Positions 54,681 through 64,000 of a stretch of DNA of 64,000 nt are shown here, piece after piece. Every line of letters begins with the position of its first letter. The first letter of the stretch is position 1. The position numbers and the translations under genes were made by a program. The notes below the pieces were generated by a model, which saw only the letters and a program-made list of their open reading frames with translations, was not told the origin of the DNA and did not search any database. The stretch is taken from assembly GCF_026013615.1 (NCBI RefSeq), contig NZ_JAPDPI010000001.1:62001-126000 (forward strand). Direction: 5' to 3'. Origin of the DNA: Plebeiibacterium marinum. Its GTDB lineage: Bacteria > Bacteroidota > Bacteroidia > Bacteroidales > Marinilabiliaceae.

Positions 54681-55157
54681 CTACTTATACTCGGCCAGGA
54701 TATCTTTAACATCCTCCGGAGCAACCCTACCGTAAACCTTTTCGCCTACCGTAACAACCGGTGCCAGACCACAAGCACCCACACAACGCAAGCTACTTAC
54801 AGAGAATTTACCATCGGGAGTTGTTTCACCAACCTTAACATCCAACAGGCGTTTAAATTCATCCAATACTTTCTCAGCTCCTCGAACATAACAAGCAGTA
54901 CCCATACAAATAGAAATAGGGTGCTTCCCTTTAGGAGTCATGGTAAAGAAAGAATAGAAAGTAACTACACCATATACATGAGCAATATTCACATTTAATT
55001 GATCGGCTACTACCTCCTGAACTTCAGCAGGCAAATATCCGAAGATCCCCTGTGCTGCATGAAGTACATTTATTAATTCGCCTTTATCGTAATTAAACTT
55101 TTTGCAAACCTCTTTTAGTTCCTGAACTTTGCTTTCAGCTAATTTTATTTCTGCCAT
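54681..55157 (-). CDS. hydC: HydC, NuoE-like [2Fe-2S] subunit of NAD-linked [FeFe] hydrogenase
   Basis: 158 residues, thioredoxin-like NuoE fold. N-terminal helices (GELINVLHAAQGIFGYLP, VNIAHVYGVVTFYSFF) are followed by the four [2Fe-2S] cysteines as CMGTAC (Cys84, Cys89) and RCVGACG (Cys125, Cys129). It passes electrons between HydB flavin and the complex. Its ATG is 5 bases after the hydA stop. It is the last gene of the hydrogenase run. Together with HydB and HydA it forms the trimeric, electron-bifurcating-type enzyme known from Thermotoga and Moorella; bifurcation here is inferred from composition. Confidence 0.93.
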   Translation of the reverse strand: MAEIKLAESKVQELKEVCKKFNYDKGELINVLHAAQGIFGYLPAEVQEVVADQLNVNIAHVYGVVTFYSFFTMTPKGKHPISICMGTACYVRGAEKVLDEFKRLLDVKVGETTPDGKFSVSSLRCVGACGLAPVVTVGEKVYGRVAPEDVKDILAEYK

Positions 55158-55162
55158 AACTG

Positions 55163-56938
55163 TTAGTCGTTATTAATTTCAACTTTCTTTTTCTTATCAA
55201 AATAGTGAGTATGAAGCAATTTATGCGACAGCTCTCCACAAGGTTCCCCTAAAAATTCTTCGTATAATTTTACGATGAATGGATTTTCGTGCGACTTACG
55301 GATTTCTTTCCCTTCATCTTCACGATAGATAGCCTCTGCCCTTTTCTTTAAAATAGTTGTATCGCCATGGTGATAAGGTTGACCAGCACCACCAATACAT
55401 CCTCCAGGACAAGCCATAATTTCAATGGCATGGAATTCTGACTTCCCGGCCTGAACATCTTCTAATAACTTGCGGGCATTACCCAATCCATGCGCAATAC
55501 CAATCTTAATCGGAAGACCATCAAAATCTACAGTTGCCGAACGAATTCCTTCAAACCCACGAAGTTCTTCAAAATCAACTTTTTCGAGTTTCTTTTTCGT
55601 TTGAACTTCATAGGCAGTACGCACTGCAGCTTCGATAACCCCTCCGGTGTTAGCAAAAATAACAGCTGCTCCGGTTGATTCTCCCATAGGATTATCGAAC
55701 TCCTCGTCTGTTAAGTCGTCAAAATTAATATTTGCTCCTTTAATCATTTGAGCCAACTCTCGTGTTGTAATTGAAAAATCAACATCAGGATTACCATCCA
55801 CTGCAAACTCAGGACGACCTGACTCATATTTCTTAGCAACACAAGGCATCACTGAAACCACAATCATGTCTTCTCGCTTGATACCCATTTGATCGGCCAA
55901 ATACGTTTTTGCTACAGCACCAAACATTTGCTGCGGCGATTTAGCCGTTGATGGCACGTCTAGCATATCAGGGAAATTACTTTCAAAGAAATTTACCCAT
56001 CCCGGGCAACAAGATGTCAGTATAGGAAGCTTAACATCCTTATCTCCGGCCAAATGCTTTTGCAAACGTCCCAATAACTCCGTACCCTCTTCCATAATGG
56101 TAAGGTCGGCAGCAAAATCGGTATCAAATACCTTATCAAAGCCTAACTTTTTAAGTGCCGAAGTCATCTTACCAGTCACCAAAGTACCCGGCTCCATATC
56201 AAACTCTTCACCTAGAGCAGCACGAACTGCAGGAGCCGTTTGTACAATAACTGTTTTAGAAGGATCAACCAATGAAGCAATCACTTTTCTGGTATTATCT
56301 ACCTCAGAAAGTGCTCCTGTTGGACAAACCGCCACACACTGACCGCAATAAGTACAGGTTGACTTCTCAAGATCCATTTCAAAAGCAGGAGCCACAACCG
56401 ATTCAAACCCTCGGTTTATAGCAGAAAGACATCCTACAGTTTGAACCTCATTACACACCATTTCACATCTGCGACACATGATACATTTGTCCATATCGCG
56501 AATAATAGATGGCGACTTATCTTCTTTATAGTGCGATTGCTCACCTTCAAAAGGAATCTCACGTATTCCTAAATCCTGAGCCATTGTTTGCAAATCACAC
56601 TTTCCGTTTTTTACACATGTTAAACACTCTGCCGGGTGGTCTGAAAGAATTAACTCCATCACTGTACGACGGGCATTGATAACCCTTAAAGAATGGGTAT
56701 TAATATCCATTCCCTCTGTACATTCCGTTTTACATGCAGGAGCCAGGTTTCTTCTTCCTTCAACCTCTACCACACAAATACGACAACCTCCGGGATTATT
56801 CTCGTAGCCAACATCGTGAAGTTTCATATGGCACAAGGTAGGCACATTAACACCTACAGACTTTGCCGCTTCCAAAATTGTAGTACCTTTTTCAACTACT
56901 ACAGGTTTGTTATCTATATTTAATTTTACAATATCCAT
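55163..56938 (-). CDS. hydA: HydA, catalytic subunit of [FeFe] hydrogenase
   Basis: 591 residues. N-terminal NuoG-like [2Fe-2S] domain (Cys36, 52, 55, 69), His101-Cys105-Cys108-Cys114 cluster, two [4Fe-4S] clusters (Cys152-162 and Cys195-205), then the H-cluster domain. The catalytic signatures are complete: TSCCP (308-312) with the proton-relay Cys310 and ligand Cys311, MPCVAK (364-369) and EIMACPGGC (506-514). It reduces protons to H2 in the cytoplasm, or the reverse. It sits between hydB and hydC with gaps of 20 and 5 bases. The maturases hydE, hydF and hydG are not in the window. Confidence 0.96.
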   Translation of the reverse strand: MDIVKLNIDNKPVVVEKGTTILEAAKSVGVNVPTLCHMKLHDVGYENNPGGCRICVVEVEGRRNLAPACKTECTEGMDINTHSLRVINARRTVMELILSDHPAECLTCVKNGKCDLQTMAQDLGIREIPFEGEQSHYKEDKSPSIIRDMDKCIMCRRCEMVCNEVQTVGCLSAINRGFESVVAPAFEMDLEKSTCTYCGQCVAVCPTGALSEVDNTRKVIASLVDPSKTVIVQTAPAVRAALGEEFDMEPGTLVTGKMTSALKKLGFDKVFDTDFAADLTIMEEGTELLGRLQKHLAGDKDVKLPILTSCCPGWVNFFESNFPDMLDVPSTAKSPQQMFGAVAKTYLADQMGIKREDMIVVSVMPCVAKKYESGRPEFAVDGNPDVDFSITTRELAQMIKGANINFDDLTDEEFDNPMGESTGAAVIFANTGGVIEAAVRTAYEVQTKKKLEKVDFEELRGFEGIRSATVDFDGLPIKIGIAHGLGNARKLLEDVQAGKSEFHAIEIMACPGGCIGGAGQPYHHGDTTILKKRAEAIYREDEGKEIRKSHENPFIVKLYEEFLGEPCGELSHKLLHTHYFDKKKKVEINND

Positions 56939-56958
56939 TGTTATACGATCTTTTTGAA

Positions 56959-58752
56959 TTACTGGATGCTGATTGCATTGAACTTACATTTCTCCATACA
57001 AGCACCACACTTAATACAAACAGTTGTATCAATCTCATGAGGTTGCTTTTTATCTCCTGAAATAGCATCAACCGGACAAACTCTTGAACACAATGTACAA
57101 CCCACACAGGTTTCCGGATTAATAACATACTCCATTAAGTCTTTACACTGACCTGCAGGGCATTTAGCATCCTTAACGTGAGCAAGATATTCATCTGCAA
57201 AGTTATCCATTGTTGAAAGAACCGGATTAGGAGAGGTTTGTCCCAAACCACAAAGAGACGTATCTTTAATTACATTCGCCAGGTTGCGAAGAATTCCCAG
57301 ATCATCTTCAGTAGCATTTCCTTTGGTAATTTTATCCAGCATTTCGTACAAACGCTTATTACCAATTCTACAAGGCGCACATTTACCACATGACTCCTCT
57401 ACTGTAAAATCAAGATAAAACTTAGCTACAGACACCATACAGTCATCCTCATCCATAACAATCATACCTCCGGATCCCATCATCGATCCCGAGGCTATCA
57501 GGTTATCGTAATCAATAGGAATATCAAGATGTTTTTCGGTTAAGCAACCACCAGAAGGGCCTCCGGTTTGAACTGCTTTAAACTTTTTACCATCTTTGAT
57601 TCCTCCTCCAATATCAAAAATCACTTCACGAAGAGTAATTCCCATTGGCACCTCAATTAAACCAACATTATTGATTTTACCAGCAAGGGCAAACACTTTG
57701 GTTCCCTTACTCTTTTCCGTTCCAATTGAGCTAAACCATTTAGCACCATTGTTTATTATTACAGGAATATTGGCAAATGTTTCAACATTGTTTACGTTAG
57801 TTGGCTTACCCTTATACCCACTCACTGACGGGAATGGTGGTTTTACCGTAGGCTCCCCTCGCAAACCTTCCATTGAGTGGATTAACGATGTTTCCTCACC
57901 ACATACAAAAGCACCAGCACCATAACGTAACTCTACATCAAAATCGAATCCTGTTCCAAAAATATCTTTACCTATAACACCTAATTCACGTGCTTGCTCA
58001 ATAGCTATTTTCAAACGCTCAATCGCCAATGGATACTCGGCACGGATATAAATTAAACCATTACTTCCGCCTATACAATATCCACAAATAGCCATTGCCT
58101 CAAGTACTGAATGCGGATCTCCCTCAAGAATTGAGCGATCCATAAATGCACCCGGGTCTCCCTCATCTGCATTACAAACTACATATTTCTCATCTCCTTC
58201 AACATTGTGCGTGATTTCCCACTTTAAACCTGTTGGAAATCCACCGCCCCCACGTCCGCGAAGACCAGAATCCTTTATTTCTTTAATAGCTTCTTCCGGA
58301 GTCATTTCAGACAACACCTTTCCCAGGGCAGCATATCCATCCCGAGCTATATATTCATCAATATTTTCAGGATTAATAAAACCACAGTTACGTAAAGCAA
58401 TACGTATCTGTTTTTTATAGAATCCCATATGCTTAGAGTCTGCAATATGCTCATTGTTTTCAGGATCCGTAAAGAGCAAACGTTCCACTTTACGACCTTT
58501 CACAATATGTTCAGAAATAATTTCTCCGGCATCTTCCGGGGTTACCTGAACGTAAAAAGTGTTATCAGGGATCATTTTAACAATAGGTCCTTTTTCACAG
58601 AACCCAAAACATCCTGTTCGAACTACCTGGATTTCATTCTCAAGGCTATTGTCAGAAACTGCCTGTTTTAAGTTTTCGACAATTTCTTCACTTTGCGAGG
58701 CACGGCATCCCGTTCCCCCACAAACTAATATGTGATTATTATACTTGGCCAT
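56959..58752 (-). CDS. hydB: HydB, NuoF-like NADH-oxidising subunit of [FeFe] hydrogenase
   Basis: 597 residues. An N-terminal thioredoxin-like [2Fe-2S] domain (Cys11, 16, 48, 52) is followed by the NuoF 51-kDa domain with FMN/NADH loop LRGRGGGGFPTGLKWE near residue 165, CNADEGDPGAFMDR and GAGAFVCGEETSL. Then come SLBB, the ESCGKCAPCRIG [4Fe-4S] site, and a C-terminal ferredoxin-like pair (CVGCTLCSRVCP and CIKCGACMEKC). This is the flavin subunit that exchanges electrons with NAD(H) and probably with ferredoxin. Its stop is 20 bases before hydA and its start 9 bases after the small [2Fe-2S] gene. Confidence 0.96.
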   Translation of the reverse strand: MAKYNNHILVCGGTGCRASQSEEIVENLKQAVSDNSLENEIQVVRTGCFGFCEKGPIVKMIPDNTFYVQVTPEDAGEIISEHIVKGRKVERLLFTDPENNEHIADSKHMGFYKKQIRIALRNCGFINPENIDEYIARDGYAALGKVLSEMTPEEAIKEIKDSGLRGRGGGGFPTGLKWEITHNVEGDEKYVVCNADEGDPGAFMDRSILEGDPHSVLEAMAICGYCIGGSNGLIYIRAEYPLAIERLKIAIEQARELGVIGKDIFGTGFDFDVELRYGAGAFVCGEETSLIHSMEGLRGEPTVKPPFPSVSGYKGKPTNVNNVETFANIPVIINNGAKWFSSIGTEKSKGTKVFALAGKINNVGLIEVPMGITLREVIFDIGGGIKDGKKFKAVQTGGPSGGCLTEKHLDIPIDYDNLIASGSMMGSGGMIVMDEDDCMVSVAKFYLDFTVEESCGKCAPCRIGNKRLYEMLDKITKGNATEDDLGILRNLANVIKDTSLCGLGQTSPNPVLSTMDNFADEYLAHVKDAKCPAGQCKDLMEYVINPETCVGCTLCSRVCPVDAISGDKKQPHEIDTTVCIKCGACMEKCKFNAISIQ

Positions 58753-58761
58753 GATTCAAAT

Positions 58762-59172
58762 TTACTTTTCGTTTTCATCTTCATTAGGAGTTGTGTAGCT
58801 GACCGGAATAACACCATCAACAAGCTCACCACCAATAATATGCTTAGTGATGATCTCTTCAGCTTTTTTGGTATCTACATGACCGTAAACCACAGGTTCT
58901 GTGCCCGGCACATGCACTTCAATGGTTGGTTCGGAATGACAATATCCCATACAACCAGTCTGTGTAACAACCGCATCAACCGCACGGTTATCCAACTCTT
59001 CAATCAGATAATTCATTGTTTCCTTAGCTCCTGATGCAATACCACAAGTTGCCATTGAAACCTTAATCTGAACCATTTTTTCCGGATGATCACTTTTTTC
59101 ACGAAGAGTAAGCTTCGATTGAAGCTCATTCCTCATTTTTTTTAGATCGTCTAAGGTTTTAACTTTCGTCAT
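58762..59172 (-). CDS. Small thioredoxin-like [2Fe-2S]-type protein of the hydrogenase cluster
   Basis: 136 residues. A helical N-terminus (about 1-30) is followed by a thioredoxin-like ferredoxin fold: VSMATCGIASGAKETMN and VVTQTGCMGYCHSEP, then VVYGHVDTKKAEEIITKHI. Only three cysteines exist (43, 74, 78), whereas NuoE-type centres use four, so either a non-Cys ligand completes the cluster or no classical [2Fe-2S] centre is formed. The gene starts the hydrogenase structural part (9 bases before hydB). It probably docks on HydB, whose N-terminus has the same fold. Upstream is a 154-base gap with A/T-rich repeats. Confidence 0.85.
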   Translation of the reverse strand: MTKVKTLDDLKKMRNELQSKLTLREKSDHPEKMVQIKVSMATCGIASGAKETMNYLIEELDNRAVDAVVTQTGCMGYCHSEPTIEVHVPGTEPVVYGHVDTKKAEEIITKHIIGGELVDGVIPVSYTTPNEDENEK

Positions 59173-59326: not shown

Positions 59327-59875
59327 TCACAGCTCAACCCCAATATCAATCAAATTCTCTTCTATCATCTGCTTTAAAAACTTAACCACCCCCGGCTCTG
59401 TAATTTCCACACCTTCCAATATGCTTTTCACCTCTCTGGTATCAAAAACATACTCCTCTTTATCAAGCACATGTTTATAAATAAATTCCACTGCAGGATT
59501 TCCTGATGCCATCAAGCTGATAGTACCAGGCAAATCTCCAAGTGGAGGCCTGTCAATGTGGGATCTCACAAAAACAGCCTCAAGCTCCGTTCCCTGGCCT
59601 GGCTCCGACTTAATTATCAACCGGCCATCAGAAAGCTGGGCATTTTGCTGTAGCAAAGGAATTCCCAATCCTACTTTTCTGGTTTTGCGCGATGTAAAAA
59701 ACGGATCCAAAGCATTTTTTATGGTAGCTTCATCCATACCACAGCCATCATCCTTTACTTTTAACACCAGAGTATCCTCTTTTGTCTTTTCAACAACAGA
59801 CACCTCAACCAATGAAGCCTTAGCCCTCACCGAGTTTCCTGAAATATCGAGGATATGCATTGAAATATCACGCAT
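59327..59875 (-). CDS. GHKL-type ATPase (histidine-kinase-like ATP-binding protein)
   Basis: 182 residues. It begins RDISMHILDISGNSVRAKAS (N-box region), then VKDDGCGMDEATIKNALDPFF (G1) and RKTRKVGLGIPLLQQNAQ (G2), so the ATP-binding fold is complete. There is no HisKA domain, phospho-acceptor His or membrane helix. It continues with a short C-terminal domain (residues about 125-182). It lies 2 bases after the PHP gene and 154 bases before the hydrogenase structural genes. Proteins of this type accompany [FeFe]-hydrogenase clusters in Firmicutes; it probably acts in signalling rather than as a full kinase. Confidence 0.82.
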   Translation of the reverse strand: MRDISMHILDISGNSVRAKASLVEVSVVEKTKEDTLVLKVKDDGCGMDEATIKNALDPFFTSRKTRKVGLGIPLLQQNAQLSDGRLIIKSEPGQGTELEAVFVRSHIDRPPLGDLPGTISLMASGNPAVEFIYKHVLDKEEYVFDTREVKSILEGVEITEPGVVKFLKQMIEENLIDIGVEL

Positions 59876-59877
59876 GG

Positions 59878-60630
59878 TTATCTTTTTAAACTGACATTTA
59901 TAATTCTTCGCCCATCTTCATTATTCAAGGCCTTTTTTATTTCATTAATACTAGGTTCCTCCAGCAAATAGGTTGTATATGCCACTCCTATATCTTCTGG
60001 TGTATGCGCATCTGAATTGGTAATTATTGAATAATTACAAACCCAGGGATACCGGATTACCACATCCTGATAATTTGCCACCCTGCTTATTTCTATACCA
60101 GATACTTTTAAATCCGGTGATAAAAAACCAAGCTGACTATTGATACTATTCCTGGGACGATCAATGTGCGCAGGGATAAAAATCCCGTTCATACTATCCA
60201 CCTTTTCTGCCACTTCATCTATTGATTGATCTAAGCCAACAATCAACAAACGCTCTTCTTCTCCTAAAATATTCCCTTTATCATCCACCCACACCTGATC
60301 TCCGAACAATTCTGCTTTATTGTGCACTACTGGCAAATGCTCATCAAGGTAATTCTGAAATTCCTTTAATTGCCCGGGACTCTCAAAAAATGCCAAACAA
60401 TGAACGTCTTCTCTGGTATTCACCTCTGCCCCACACAAAACCACAATACCAAACTTTTCTCCCAACTTTCTGATAACCTCACTTTGCCTGGTACTGTTAT
60501 GGTCGGCGATTCCTATTATGTCTAATTTCTTGCTTAGTGCCTCCTCTATAATAACTTCAGGACTCATTTCCAGGCTCCCACAGGGTGAGAGCACTGTATG
60601 AATATGTAAATCAGCCCTGAATTCTTTCAT
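59878..60630 (-). CDS. PHP-domain protein of the hydrogenase cluster
   Basis: 250 residues from the ATG at 60630 (a TTG two codons upstream is the alternative). Metal-binding PHP motifs are present: ADLHIHTVLSPCG (HxH), IGIADHNSTRQ, VLCGAEVNTREDVHCLAFF, IPAHIDRPRNSI and ITNSDAHTPEDIG. A Mg/Mn- or Zn/Fe-dependent phosphoesterase activity is likely, on a nucleotide or phosphoprotein. It sits between the DRTGG protein and the GHKL ATPase, in an operon-like run. Its role in hydrogenase regulation is inferred from position. Confidence 0.85.
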   Translation of the reverse strand: MKEFRADLHIHTVLSPCGSLEMSPEVIIEEALSKKLDIIGIADHNSTRQSEVIRKLGEKFGIVVLCGAEVNTREDVHCLAFFESPGQLKEFQNYLDEHLPVVHNKAELFGDQVWVDDKGNILGEEERLLIVGLDQSIDEVAEKVDSMNGIFIPAHIDRPRNSINSQLGFLSPDLKVSGIEISRVANYQDVVIRYPWVCNYSIITNSDAHTPEDIGVAYTTYLLEEPSINEIKKALNNEDGRRIINVSLKR

Positions 60631-60664
60631 AACCAAAAGAAAATTATTACAATTTTATCTTATC

Positions 60665-61024
60665 TTAAAAAGCACCATACTTTCCTTTCTCTTCATTTAG
60701 GAGTGTGAACAAAACCCCGGAAGCCTCAAAGGTTTCCATGTCCGTTCCTAATATCGGAATGCCTTCCTCATTGCTTTGATCAATGGCTGCCTGTTCAGGC
60801 TTATATCCCTTAACCAAAATAATAGCCGCAACTTCCTTTAAAGAGGCAATAGCCATAATATTTCTGTGTGTTTGCAAGGTAATCCAAACCTGTCCCTCGT
60901 CCACATTACCCATAACATCACTTAACAAATCTGATGTATAGGCACCTTCCACCTCGTTGTTTATACCTTGTTCACCACAAAAAACTGTTAAATTGAGTTT
61001 TTCAACTAAATCACATACCTTCAT
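60665..61024 (-). CDS. DRTGG-domain protein (second copy)
   Basis: 119 residues from the ATG at 61024. The longer frame to 61099 would run 25 codons into the hydrogenase-like gene without similarity to the other DRTGG protein; from 61024 the two copies align (MKVCDLVEKLNL versus MKISEIVRILNA). Motif YTSDLLSDVMGNVDEGQVWIT, hydrophobic strands and EEGIPILGTDMETFEASGVLF. It overlaps the hydrogenase-like gene by 14 bases. DRTGG domains are found in CBS-PTA regulators and have no proven ligand. Role inferred as regulatory. Confidence 0.8.
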   Translation of the reverse strand: MKVCDLVEKLNLTVFCGEQGINNEVEGAYTSDLLSDVMGNVDEGQVWITLQTHRNIMAIASLKEVAAIILVKGYKPEQAAIDQSNEEGIPILGTDMETFEASGVLFTLLNEEKGKYGAF

Positions 61025-62387
61025 TTTTTGCTCCTTTTTTACTGCAATCCTTATCCAGTCGCTGATTTCCCCAGGTTTTTTCGATAATACGGGTAGCATG
61101 CTCCCCGCTTAACTTCCTGTTTTTCTCCATCATACGTTGCATAAACACGCAATTAGACAAGTTTGCTTTACGTTGAACAATATCTTCAGCCAACGATTGG
61201 CAATTTGGCGACCCACATGCTCCACAATCTATCCCAGGCAAATAGCACATTAAGTTACGAATTCGCTCCATTTTTTTCAATGCTTCATTAAAATCCTGAT
61301 CCAATGACATTGCCGGAAGCGGGTCTATTTTTGTAATAAATAAATCTTTATCCTGTAGAATATCTTTATATTCCTGTAAATCATCATTCTGCTCATCATC
61401 ATTCTCTAACTGATTAGCCCTAATTTTTAAACGCTCTACAGTTAAAAACCGGTTCCCTTGCAACAGGGCACCTCCGGCACACCCCTGGTCACACGCCCTG
61501 AGTTCCAGAAAATCCAGTTCGGGTATTTCTTCATCCTCTAACCGGCCTAAAAACTCTATCACATTATGAATTTCATCCACGGCCAGAGAACGACCATTCA
61601 TATGGTCAGACTCCCCGTGCGTAAGGCTCCACTGAACAGCTTTACTCGACAAGTGGGGAAGAACCGGTAAATCCTTTAATGAGTCTTTTCTGTTTTTTAT
61701 TTTATGATATAGCTTATTGGAGATATAGCTCATATTGATCACTCCATCAATAACTTCATTGGTATTCTGACCAAAGCCTTTTATTGCAGCAATTTTTGCG
61801 GCACATGGCGTAATGTAGAAAATTCCGATTTGACTCTCTGGGATACCCTGCTTGCAAAGCATCTTTTTGTAGAAAGCAGCAGAGGCATCGACTGGAGGTT
61901 TTACTGCGGCTATATTATCAATAAGTGCCGGAAATTTAACTTGAATTAATCGAACGATGGCAGGACAAAAAGTTGAGATCAATGGCTTTTCATCATTTTG
62001 GGCAATCTGTTCATTCATCAGATTGTTGATCATATCCACCATAAATTCAGCCTGAAACACATGGGTAAACCCAAGTTCTTTCATTTCGCTAAAAATCTCT
62101 TCCTCGGTAATAGCTGTTGGAAACTGTCCTGTAAAAACGGCTGGCACAAGGGCTACCCTGCACTCATAATCAAAAATCTTTTCAAGGTCATCCTGTTCTA
62201 CATAGATAGCATCTACCGGACAAACCTTTAAGCACTCACCACAGTCTACACAACGTTTTTTCAGGATACGTGCTTTTCCTTCATTGATGCGAATAGCTTC
62301 GGTAGGACACACGTTCATACAATGTGTACAACCATAACAAATATCCTGGTCAACCTTTAAGGCATGATATATTTGTTGTTTTGCCAT
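61011..62387 (-). CDS. Putative sensory [FeFe]-hydrogenase-like protein (HydS-like)
   Basis: 458 residues. An N-terminal 2[4Fe-4S] ferredoxin domain (Cys17-27 and Cys46-56) is followed by an H-cluster-type domain with ligand cysteines 141, 195, 299 and 303, and a C-terminal CYLPGIDCGACGSPNC [4Fe-4S] site (residues 381-396). The catalytic signatures are altered: TSCCP reads STFCP (proton-relay Cys is Phe140), MPCxxK reads TPCAAK (Met is Thr193; the Glu after it is Ala), and EIMAC reads ELRAC (Met is Arg297). The H-cluster can therefore probably bind, but turnover should be impaired, as in HydS-type putative sensors. It overlaps the DRTGG gene by 14 bases. Confidence 0.88.
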   Translation of the reverse strand: MAKQQIYHALKVDQDICYGCTHCMNVCPTEAIRINEGKARILKKRCVDCGECLKVCPVDAIYVEQDDLEKIFDYECRVALVPAVFTGQFPTAITEEEIFSEMKELGFTHVFQAEFMVDMINNLMNEQIAQNDEKPLISTFCPAIVRLIQVKFPALIDNIAAVKPPVDASAAFYKKMLCKQGIPESQIGIFYITPCAAKIAAIKGFGQNTNEVIDGVINMSYISNKLYHKIKNRKDSLKDLPVLPHLSSKAVQWSLTHGESDHMNGRSLAVDEIHNVIEFLGRLEDEEIPELDFLELRACDQGCAGGALLQGNRFLTVERLKIRANQLENDDEQNDDLQEYKDILQDKDLFITKIDPLPAMSLDQDFNEALKKMERIRNLMCYLPGIDCGACGSPNCQSLAEDIVQRKANLSNCVFMQRMMEKNRKLSGEHATRIIEKTWGNQRLDKDCSKKGAKNEGM

Positions 62388-62397
62388 TCAGCTTTTT

Positions 62398-62808
62398 TTA
62401 TAAATAAGTTTTCATCTCTACTTTAGTTCCTTTATCAACCTCACTGGATACCTTTAAATCATCAACATTTTTTTTAATGTTTGGCAACCCCATTCCTGCC
62501 CCAAAACCCATTTCCCTAACTTTAGAAGATGCCGTGGAATATCCTTCCTGCATAGCCAGGTCAATATCCGGGATTCCAGGCCCAACATCATCCAACACTA
62601 TATGGATCTGATCCTGATTGATATTTACACTGATAGTCCCTTTATAGGCATGTGCTACAATATTCACTTCTGCTTCATAAAGAGCAACAACTATTCGCTT
62701 TACAATTTTAGGACTGACATTAAGCTGCTTCAGTGTTTTTTTTACAGCACTTGAAGCATTACCTGCCTTTGTAAAATCACCGCCTTCAACTTCGTATACA
62801 AATTCCAT
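62398..62808 (-). CDS. RsbW-like GHKL ATPase (anti-sigma-type kinase fold)
   Basis: 136 residues: a minimal GHKL domain. ALYEAEVNIVAHAYKG (N-box), LDDVGPGIPDIDLAMQEG (G1) and EMGFGAGMGLPNIKKNVD (G2) are all present. The similarity is to RsbW/SpoIIAB-type serine kinases rather than histidine kinases, since no HisKA precedes it. Its start is 9 bases after the first DRTGG gene and its stop 10 bases before the hydrogenase-like gene. With the SpoIIE-type phosphatase upstream it could form a phosphorylation switch; the substrate is not identified. Confidence 0.85.
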   Translation of the reverse strand: MEFVYEVEGGDFTKAGNASSAVKKTLKQLNVSPKIVKRIVVALYEAEVNIVAHAYKGTISVNINQDQIHIVLDDVGPGIPDIDLAMQEGYSTASSKVREMGFGAGMGLPNIKKNVDDLKVSSEVDKGTKVEMKTYL

Positions 62809-62817
62809 ATATAAACC

Positions 62818-63162
62818 CTAATAAACTGGTTTCAACCCGGCTTCGTAAAGCATACCTACCGCATTAAACATTGAGTATTTACATTGTAGCAAAATCATGT
62901 CGTGTTCCTTTGCCAGCTCTAACATATCGGCACTAATTTGTTTATTCCTAACAAACAGCACACACTGAACATCAGCCATCTCAACCGTTCTTATCGTTTG
63001 CATATTAGCAAGTCCGGTTATTAAAACCATCTTATCTGTATCCAATGTAAGGACATCACTCATAAGATCGCTTGCAAAACCACGCTCTATATCCATATCA
63101 ACATGTGCTTGACCACATGCAACCTTAGCATTCAGGATTCTGACAATCTCACTAATTTTCAT
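62818..63162 (-). CDS. DRTGG-domain protein (first copy)
   Basis: 114 residues. MKISEIVRILNAKVACGQAHVDMD, then the shared motif FASDLMSDVLTLDTDKMVLIT, and LAKEHDMILLQCKYSMFNAVGML. It aligns over its length with the protein at 60665; the common pattern is SDLxSDV. Small, no membrane segment. First gene of the tight run DRTGG - GHKL - hydrogenase-like - DRTGG - PHP. A 326-base gap with possible operator sequences separates it from the upstream phosphatase gene. Confidence 0.82.
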   Translation of the reverse strand: MKISEIVRILNAKVACGQAHVDMDIERGFASDLMSDVLTLDTDKMVLITGLANMQTIRTVEMADVQCVLFVRNKQISADMLELAKEHDMILLQCKYSMFNAVGMLYEAGLKPVY

Positions 63163-63488
63163 TCAATAAAGGACTTAATTCTTTTAAAATAAACTTGATA
63201 ACTTCAATTAAAGAAATTTTTCAAGAATTGACTTGCAAAATACGCGGTATCCTGTGAAAAAAAAAAGAGGATTTTGTTCATTAACGTAATAAATAACCAA
63301 TCTAAATAACTTAACAATTGTTAAAACTTACATCATTATGTTTTTGCATATTTATGCACTTTTACACACCTCCCAAAACACACACACACACCTGAAAACC
63401 TGAACATTACACACACCACCCAAAGCATTCCATTTTAAAACCAATATATACCTGCCCTTATACCCATATAATTTTGATTGATTATAAA
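63163..63488. other. 326-base gap upstream of the hydrogenase regulatory genes
   Basis: It contains a perfect 14-bp palindrome TTAACAATTGTTAA at 63311-63324, a second inverted repeat TGCATA-TT-TATGCA at 63345-63358, and a CA-rich tract around 63363-63420 (GT-rich in the direction of transcription). No convincing TAnnTTTG promoter box and no Rex-type (TTGTGAA/TTCACAA) site were found. Confidence 0.55.
63311..63324. promoter_or_regulatory. Perfect 14-bp palindrome, candidate operator
   Basis: TTAACAATTGTTAA equals its own reverse complement. It lies about 150 bases upstream of the first DRTGG start. It is not the Rex arrangement (there the half-sites are in the opposite order). The binding factor is unknown. 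Confidence 0.4.
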
Positions 63489-64000
63489 TTATACATATTC
63501 AATGGAGACTTCCTTTAAAAACTTTTCTTCGAGCAACCTGGCAATTCTTTTCACCACAGTACGACGTATTTCTAGTTCTACCGGAAGGTTTGGATCCTGA
63601 TGTGCAACATTAATCCTGGTACCATTAATGATATGAATCTTATCACTTTCCAAAAACATCTTAACAATTTGAAAAGCAGGCCCTTTACCCAAAACATCAT
63701 CTTTATAAAAGTTTTCGAGGATACGCACTACTTTCCCTAAGGTCAATATGCCTTCTGTTACCAGATCAACCCCTTCCATTTGGGCAGTCGGTGGTAAATC
63801 CGGATCCAGCATTTCCAGGCTGGCCGAAAACTTCAACCCCAACTCTCTGGCAACAATTTCGGCTGTGGTTCCTCCACTAACAATTTTCTTCCCACCAAAC
63901 CTTTGAACTTTAATCGAAAAATCTGCATCTTTTTCTTCTTCATATGGCGGACCAGTTACAAACAAAAGTTTCCGAGGTTCCCTGAAATAGATAATTCCGC
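63489..64000 (-). CDS. C-terminal part of a SpoIIE-like protein phosphatase (5' end outside window)
   Basis: Open to the window edge on the minus strand, so about 170 C-terminal residues are visible. They read GIIYFREPRKLLFVTGPPY, FGGKKIVSGGTTAEIVAREL and MEGVDLVTEGILTLGKVV, then SDKIHIINGTRINVAHQD. This resembles the C-terminus of the SpoIIE/PP2C-type phosphatases found with [FeFe]-hydrogenase gene sets in Firmicutes (recalled, not searched). The phosphatase active-site Asp residues would be upstream, outside view. It is probably transcribed with or just ahead of the regulatory genes, across a 326-base gap. Confidence 0.65.
   Translation of the reverse strand, partial: GIIYFREPRKLLFVTGPPYEEEKDADFSIKVQRFGGKKIVSGGTTAEIVARELGLKFSASLEMLDPDLPPTAQMEGVDLVTEGILTLGKVVRILENFYKDDVLGKGPAFQIVKMFLESDKIHIINGTRINVAHQDPNLPVELEIRRTVVKRIARLLEEKFLKEVSIEYV

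Follow-up and report, generated by a model that had tools for sequence, protein, structure and literature searches.

On the minus strand of a 64,000-nucleotide stretch of Plebeiibacterium marinum (referred to here as the window, a part of contig C99 in a genome of 5.6 Mb), positions 59327 to 64000 carry regulatory genes that precede a predicted electron-bifurcating [FeFe] hydrogenase operon, hydABC. In this study, we found that six of these genes, DRTGG1-RsbW-HydS-DRTGG2-PHP-GHKL, probably form a single signalling cassette, which takes redox state or H2 as its input and serves complexes assembled around the electron-bifurcating HydBC (Bfu) core. The set accompanies this energy-conserving type of hydrogenase across many anaerobic bacteria. 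The five other genes persist where the hydrogenase-like protein HydS is altered or missing. This suggests that the cassette would control the bifurcating enzyme, with hydrogen as one of several possible inputs.

Conservation and layout of the cassette

A search of 393 genomes of the order for HydS (E ≤ 1e-50, at most four candidates scored per genome) recovered it in 113. The initial annotation had pointed to the presence of this gene set in a Bacteroidota genome; the presence stands, and it is not peculiar to one genome. The locus set comprised 112 loci of the order, namely 111 and our own (L007). The locus counts given below refer to the 82 loci, our own included, with at least 6 kb on either side; 30 short-flanked loci and that of genome G347 (L046) were excluded. 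Annotation profiles were made from six loci (L007, L010-L013, and L044), with bit thresholds chosen by the analyst. Firmicutes were covered by one plasmid record (L045) and published tables. A plasmid search gave 21 records, five with 80% coverage, and led nowhere.

DRTGG1-RsbW-HydS was found in 79 of the 82 loci, and the complete six-gene order in 67. The genes of the cassette are separated by median gaps of -4 to 4.5 base pairs (bp), versus 86 bp before the ferredoxin gene of the hyd operon. In a scan with one protein, all 16 genes of the array stood in identical order in four of four named Marinilabiliaceae relatives, so that the gene order recurs beyond chance. Variants of the cassette order were also observed: the DRTGG2-PHP-GHKL half (DHG) ahead of the DRTGG1-RsbW-HydS half (dWS), split halves, and divergent trimers. 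Unlinked halves persist: among genomes with atypical loci, 9/11 have a PHP ortholog, and at 7/8 such loci that were read, DRTGG2, GHKL, or RsbW adjoins PHP.

Any HydA was found in the stretch at 62/82 loci, and ferredoxin-HydB-HydA lies downstream at 59/82. A second trimer lies upstream at 29/82 loci, and upstream and downstream hyd sets occur together at 27/82. Orthologs were then counted per genome, with at most three candidates scored for HydA and at most ten for RsbW (E ≤ 1e-20). The HydA ortholog (at least 64% identity among the matches listed) occurs in 148/393 genomes, that is, in 107/113 with HydS versus 41/280 without it. Any group A HydA (E ≤ 1e-120) was found in 111/113 and 127/280 genomes, respectively. 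The RsbW ortholog had a single match in each of 120/393 genomes. These comprise every one of the 113 HydS genomes plus seven others, of which five have the HydA ortholog. These results support the proposal of the initial annotation that the genes are one unit coupled to bifurcating hydABC. It had held that copies in unrelated contexts would speak against coupling, and no second RsbW copy in another context was seen among the candidates scored in the 393 genomes. Its placement of the genes next to hydABC is common and not strict, since a HydA within about 9 kb is lacking at 20/82 loci. In all 20 cases, the genome encodes a group A HydA. The six genes stand alone between unrelated genes in a Parabacteroides distasonis record and likewise in G347. 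At L148 (G444), ferredoxin-HydB-HydC accompany the cassette with no HydA between, and none of the three PF02906 hits of this genome matched our HydA at E ≤ 1e-120 (at most three candidates scored).

All seven genes of the initial annotation are present, and Pfam matched their predicted domains (HATPase, PHP, DRTGG, Fe_hyd_lg_C with FeS, HATPase_c_2, DRTGG, and SpoIIE). The array extends beyond the window end. In transcription order, it begins with HydC, a short HydB (393 amino acids, aa), HydA, a [2Fe-2S] protein, a 617-aa sensory-type hydrogenase, and SpoIIE; after 326 bp come DRTGG1, RsbW, HydS, DRTGG2, PHP, and GHKL, and after a further 154 bp come ferredoxin, HydB, HydA, and HydC. Two hydABC trimers thus stand one on each side of the 617-aa hydrogenase-SpoIIE genes and the cassette. 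Their HydA proteins share 52% identity, and both score above the A6 cut-off. The tight spacing described earlier holds from DRTGG1 to GHKL (-14 to 28 bp at this locus) and fails at the 326-bp and 154-bp gaps. The set at 54681-59172 fits the bifurcating type (group A6/A3 HydA plus HydB and HydC), bifurcation being predicted. The genes in the window are as follows.

63489..64000, minus strand: SpoIIE/PP2C-like phosphatase, truncated by the window (PF07228, 25.5 bits, cut-off 25); full length 397 aa, L007:11490-12683 (window 63489-64682)
62818..63162, minus strand: DRTGG1, 114 aa, with the conserved motif SD(L)MSDVL...TG (PF07085, 25.5 bits, cut-off 25.2)
62398..62808, minus strand: RsbW/SpoIIAB-like GHKL kinase, 136 aa (Pfam; TIGR01925 below cut-off)
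61011..62387, minus strand: HydS, 458 aa, group D (M2e)-type sensory [FeFe]-hydrogenase-like protein (Pfam, residue alignment)
60665..61024, minus strand: DRTGG2, 119 aa (Pfam; 25% identity to DRTGG1)
59878..60636, minus strand: PHP-domain metal phosphoesterase (Pfam, residue conservation)
59327..59875, minus strand: GHKL ATPase, 182 aa, HATPase only (Pfam)
58762..59172, minus strand: [2Fe-2S] thioredoxin-like ferredoxin (Fd2) of the hyd operon (gene position, gap analysis)
56959..58752, minus strand: HydB, 597 aa, ferredoxin-like C-terminus (position and length)
55163..56938, minus strand: HydA, group A6 [FeFe] hydrogenase, 591 aa (NF040763, 904 bits, cut-off 765)
54681..55157, minus strand: HydC, 158 aa (position and length)

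DRTGG2 probably starts at 61024 rather than at 61099, because Met stands there in 103/108 aligned rows. The ATP site of RsbW (E45, N49, D74, G76, G78, G101, G103, G105, and G107) is invariant in 120/120 rows, and the protein scores below the cut-offs of curated families (TIGR01925, 66.9 bits versus 135; PRK04069, 35.6 versus 145). Ser35 and Thr49 of DRTGG1 are invariant (116/116 rows), as are Ser60 and Thr74 of DRTGG2 (108/108, numbered from the longer start). The His/Asp/Glu residues of PHP, which we take to be metal ligands, are conserved in 106-107/107 rows. Pfam found no phospho-acceptor histidine domain in the 182-aa GHKL ATPase. A PDB search with DRTGG2 returned nothing under E 0.5. The Bacteroidota-type promoter pattern gave 6 matches in the window versus 5.7 expected, none of them at or beyond 54681.

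HydS and its changes across lineages

HydS has two N-terminal [4Fe-4S] sites (C17/20/23/27 and C46/49/52/56), an H-domain (PF02906, 90 bits), a C-terminal FeS domain in which C388-C391-C396-C413 give Cx2Cx4Cx16C followed by 45 residues, and no PAS. In an alignment of 122 rows, all four cubane-ligand cysteines are kept in every readable row. The C299 position is F in 112 rows, Y in 9, and A in 1; the M353 position is T in 113, S in 7, and A in 1, with one gap; and the M497 position is Arg in 112/120. The group D proton relay is represented by E259 (116/122), E295 (120/122), T/S256 (111/122), and D271 (116/122), which were mapped onto E252/E289/S249/D265 of Thermoanaerobacter mathranii TamHydS through a numbering offset and not against the TamHydS sequence. 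The group D criteria applied to HydS were those given in the excerpted part of PMC8163306, namely no PAS, Cx2Cx4Cx16C, and replacement of C299 and M353. On these features, the 458-aa protein fits group D (M2e). Its closest named relative is that of Plebeiobacterium sediminum, with 89% identity in the best segment.

We also considered a dead H-cluster plugged by Arg297/Phe140 in our own HydS. This candidate was dropped, as the cubane cysteines, the K358 equivalent, and the relay residues are kept, and HydE, HydF, and HydG all score over cut-off in the genome. H2 chemistry by our HydS is likely for the same reasons. AlphaFold predictions were too poor for use, with a mean pLDDT of 39.6 for HydS and 38.6 for the 617-aa type.

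HydS is dispensable to the other five genes. In G426, G482, G538, and G541, HydS is missing and DRTGG2-PHP-GHKL comes straight after DRTGG1-RsbW. No PF02906 hit in these four genomes resembles HydS in length and score (about 76-106 bits); the nearest in length, a 481-aa protein of G482, has 188 bits, a score like those of group B-type proteins. Six loci were read among the seven RsbW genomes with no HydS match, the exception being G639 (76% complete), and G644 (66% complete) has DRTGG1-RsbW only. Loss of HydS needs no change of the catalytic head, because an ordinary [FeFe] HydA lies downstream in G538 and G541. The diverged HydS of G724 has no Pfam H-domain match, yet all 16 cluster cysteines are kept; the K358 position is Glu, the Glu of the third motif is replaced by His, and the relay Glu is kept, in an uncertain alignment.

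The cassette also accompanies other catalytic heads. G172, G337, and G180 belong to other classes of the phylum; downstream of the six genes, they encode HydC-ferredoxin-HydB and a subunit of 586-588 aa that contains ferredoxin domains but no H-domain. [NiFe]-hydrogenase genes adjoin, of the small-subunit family at L047 and L048 and of the large-subunit family at L049, and genes that read as HdrB/HdrC-like, identified from the sequences only, lie on the other side. In G462 and G537 (L168/L169), DRTGG1 is fused to RsbW in a single protein of 272-279 aa, with HydC-HydB and a molybdopterin subunit close to DRTGG2, the fused protein, and HydS. The head in G482, which lacks HydS, is a 900-aa molybdopterin protein that reads as formate-dehydrogenase-like.

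The relay Glu (TamHydS E252 equivalent) is kept in 116/121 readable HydS rows, and the five rows without it coincide exactly with the [NiFe]/Hdr and molybdopterin loci (L047-L049 and L168-L169). These form one clade (SH-aLRT 96), and the neighbouring Firmicute L045 keeps Glu; the tree was a quick one of 44 rows with long outgroup branches. We rejected a repeated loss of the relay Glu with head swaps, since the tree gives a single change and the correlation has n = 1. G172 and G337 have no PF02906 protein besides HydS, and HydE, HydF, and HydG all fall below cut-off there. G180 also lacks HydEFG and has a 646-aa HydA, and G462 and G537 have all three. From these features, HydS looks dead, and not plausibly H2-reactive, in the [NiFe]/molybdopterin clade and in G724. 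The initial annotation held that the hydrogenase-like protein reads H2 or redox state; this needs amending, because HydS is dispensable and, in at least two lineages, not plausibly H2-reactive.

As a separate observation, G679, G596, G347, G397, and G180 (98-99% complete) have a group A-type HydA but HydE/HydF/HydG below cut-off.

Proposed mechanism and alternative readings

In the mechanism we propose, H2 or a low-potential redox state would be reported by HydS, which is an iron-sulfur protein and in most members has an H-cluster site; the state of HydS would gate the RsbW kinase. DRTGG1 may be the direct partner of RsbW and likely its substrate. PHP, and in some genomes SpoIIE, would act as the opposing phosphatase. 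DRTGG2 may make up, with the second GHKL ATPase, another half through which the cassette couples to the enzyme. A linked promoter would be a less likely target of the output than the enzyme or a trans-acting regulator, because no DNA-binding domain was found among the Pfam hits of the cassette.

Several findings weigh against one signalling cassette with redox or H2 input. The genomes are related, so that the counts are not independent events and Fisher values overstate the evidence. The RsbW ortholog is absent from 36/148 genomes with the HydA ortholog; therefore, the enzyme can do without RsbW. HydA is distant at the 20 loci noted above. No STAS protein, the textbook partner of RsbW, was found on the cassette contig C99; five STAS hits lie elsewhere in the genome. 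With respect to inputs other than hydrogen, HydS may read H2 almost everywhere, given the near-universal relay Glu, and its loss is one change by parsimony on the tree. G395 (L154) has no PF02906 protein other than HydS and still keeps HydE, HydF, and HydG, as though they served HydS. Furthermore, G679, G596, G347, and G397 lack HydEFG despite a group A HydA and a relay-intact HydS, so that the absence of HydEFG says little about whether HydS is dead.

A broader reading is that of a general phospho-switch for Bfu-type complexes, with a five-gene core, DRTGG in the STAS role, and an exchangeable sensor derived from [FeFe] hydrogenase that reads cell redox, and not H2, in at least two lineages. 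We put this forward tentatively, as a possibility that falls somewhat short of an even chance.

It is also conceivable, though unlikely, that the cassette is no signalling system but helps to assemble HydABC/Bfu complexes or to insert their cofactors, with HydS as a structural or electron-donor factor. RsbW-type kinases act in signalling in known cases, and HydABC of T. maritima has reportedly been made active in E. coli. The 36 genomes that have the HydA ortholog without RsbW also argue against an aid of this kind. It would agree with the position of the cassette beside a HydBC core with several catalytic heads, and with the cluster cysteines of G724 that outlast the H-domain signature. An ATPase, HydE, of A. 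woodii has been described as perhaps involved in assembly or signalling, according to an excerpt of PMC3315566.

The initial annotation had proposed a linear route, in which the hydrogenase-like protein senses H2, a SpoIIE/RsbW pair acts on a DRTGG protein, and the output sets hydABC expression. SpoIIE and SpoIIAB oppose each other in Bacillus, SpoIIE lies 326 bp upstream of DRTGG1-RsbW at our locus, and the relay Glu is kept in most HydS rows. However, SpoIIE overlaps the upstream 617-aa hydrogenase by 11 bp and, by this gene spacing, belongs with the upstream unit and not with the six genes. It was found in only 9/82 loci, and SpoIIE and RsbW as a conserved pair were rejected for this reason. 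On contig C118 (L009/L054), a second sensory locus elsewhere in our genome, SpoIIE accompanies a PAS-type HydS without RsbW. The persistence of five genes without HydS in four genomes, the missing STAS gene on the contig, and the lack of a DNA-binding domain in the Pfam hits also disagree with the linear route, which we regard as improbable; its kinase/phosphatase pair was not supported.

Mere co-inheritance of neighbouring operons without functional coupling is very improbable: an ancestral arrangement may be widely inherited and relatedness inflates the counts, but the association outlasts unlinking (a group A HydA is encoded in the genome of each of the 20 HydA-distant loci), and the cassette persists in rearranged forms (DHG-dWS, split halves, and divergent trimers).

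The upstream sensory unit has features of its own. "PAS-type" HydS, which occurs in 8/82 loci, is a label taken from gene layout and not a detected domain; the 617-aa hydrogenase (L007:12673-14526) gave no Pfam PAS match at E ≤ 0.01, and the AlphaFold model of a relative was too poor. In its third H-cluster motif, CxxC replaces CxxxC. CxxC was observed in all 10 readable rows (L007, L010-L013, L059-L061, L063, and L148), four partial rows being uninformative. The C-terminal half of SpoIIE contains a GTRIN, AHQDP, PVELE stretch, conserved at nearly all positions in 15/15 rows, that lies outside the sole Pfam match. The C118 locus has the PAS-type HydS, SpoIIE, and a 482-aa hydrogenase in an hfsBCD-like layout, with a sigma-54-type regulator, recognised by sequence reading, upstream. 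In another class, L050:8252-10216 (654 aa) is a HydS fused to a histidine kinase (HisKA and HATPase), and HydS-type open frames of 656-710 aa recur.

Comparison with known systems

The published systems are compared here on excerpts of the cited papers. Group D (M2e) hydrogenases have already been proposed as sensors near a bifurcating hydrogenase, with a kinase-like ATPase nearby (PMC8163306). Our HydS resembles TamHydS in its domain layout, the absence of C299, and a hydroxyl residue at the M353 position, and the loci are alike in lying upstream of bifurcating hydABC with a histidine-kinase-like ATPase alongside (PMC8163306, PMC10407848). In TamHydS, E252 variants nearly lost H2 oxidation (PMC10407848). 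The proteins differ at the C299 position, which is Phe/Tyr here (121/122) and Ala in TamHydS, and at M497, which is Arg here (112/120) and Leu there. Our locus also differs in having RsbW, two DRTGG proteins, and PHP as a conserved cassette without an AraC-type regulator.

It has been reported that an M2e gene lies upstream of hydABC, four gene numbers away, in Caldicellulosiruptor, Clostridium phytofermentans, and Caldanaerobacter, and that a histidine/serine kinase often stands between M2e and the bifurcating trimer (PMC3561251). The intervening genes are unnamed there, and our locus has, in addition, another trimer and a PAS-type HydS accompanied by SpoIIE. The 617-aa HydS with SpoIIE and the C118 locus have the layout of the phosphatase-linked group C3 (R. 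albus HydS and Thermoanaerobacterium hfsBCD; PMC5037454, PMC6776011, PMC11837493). In comparison with this group, our 617-aa protein has CxxC, whereas our C118 protein keeps CxxxC. In Hydrogenedentota, sensory group C hydrogenases occur beside bifurcating ones, and group C1 proteins bear HATPase (PMC11406978).

The Bfu family joins a HydBC core to differing third-substrate heads (PMC9304861). The head-swap loci fit this family, in whose figure legend the regulatory genes are left uncoloured; a shared regulatory cassette was not found in the excerpted part of that account. In a literature search for DRTGG with hydrogenase, the only DRTGG mention in the parts covered concerns an unrelated lactate gene, and earlier surveys may name some cassette genes. 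The layout is therefore known in outline, and a defined cassette, the dispensability of its sensor, and its occurrence beside non-[FeFe] heads were not found in the portions of the literature searched.

How the signal is transferred from a group D sensory hydrogenase has been raised as a question (PMC8163306). The present analysis names likely signalling partners of a sensory [FeFe] hydrogenase, and these partners form a portable cassette. It also supplies natural experiments in the form of sensor deletions, a DRTGG-RsbW fusion, an unlinked Parabacteroides copy, and head swaps. Bifurcating hydrogenases join in H2 release by fermenters, so that a cassette dedicated to their control would matter for H2 in guts and sediments. 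The SpoIIAB/RsbW partner switch offers a further comparison. Our cassette shares with it an RsbW-like kinase with an intact ATP site, but there is no STAS protein on the contig and no sigma factor in the cassette, and a DRTGG protein takes the adjacent position.

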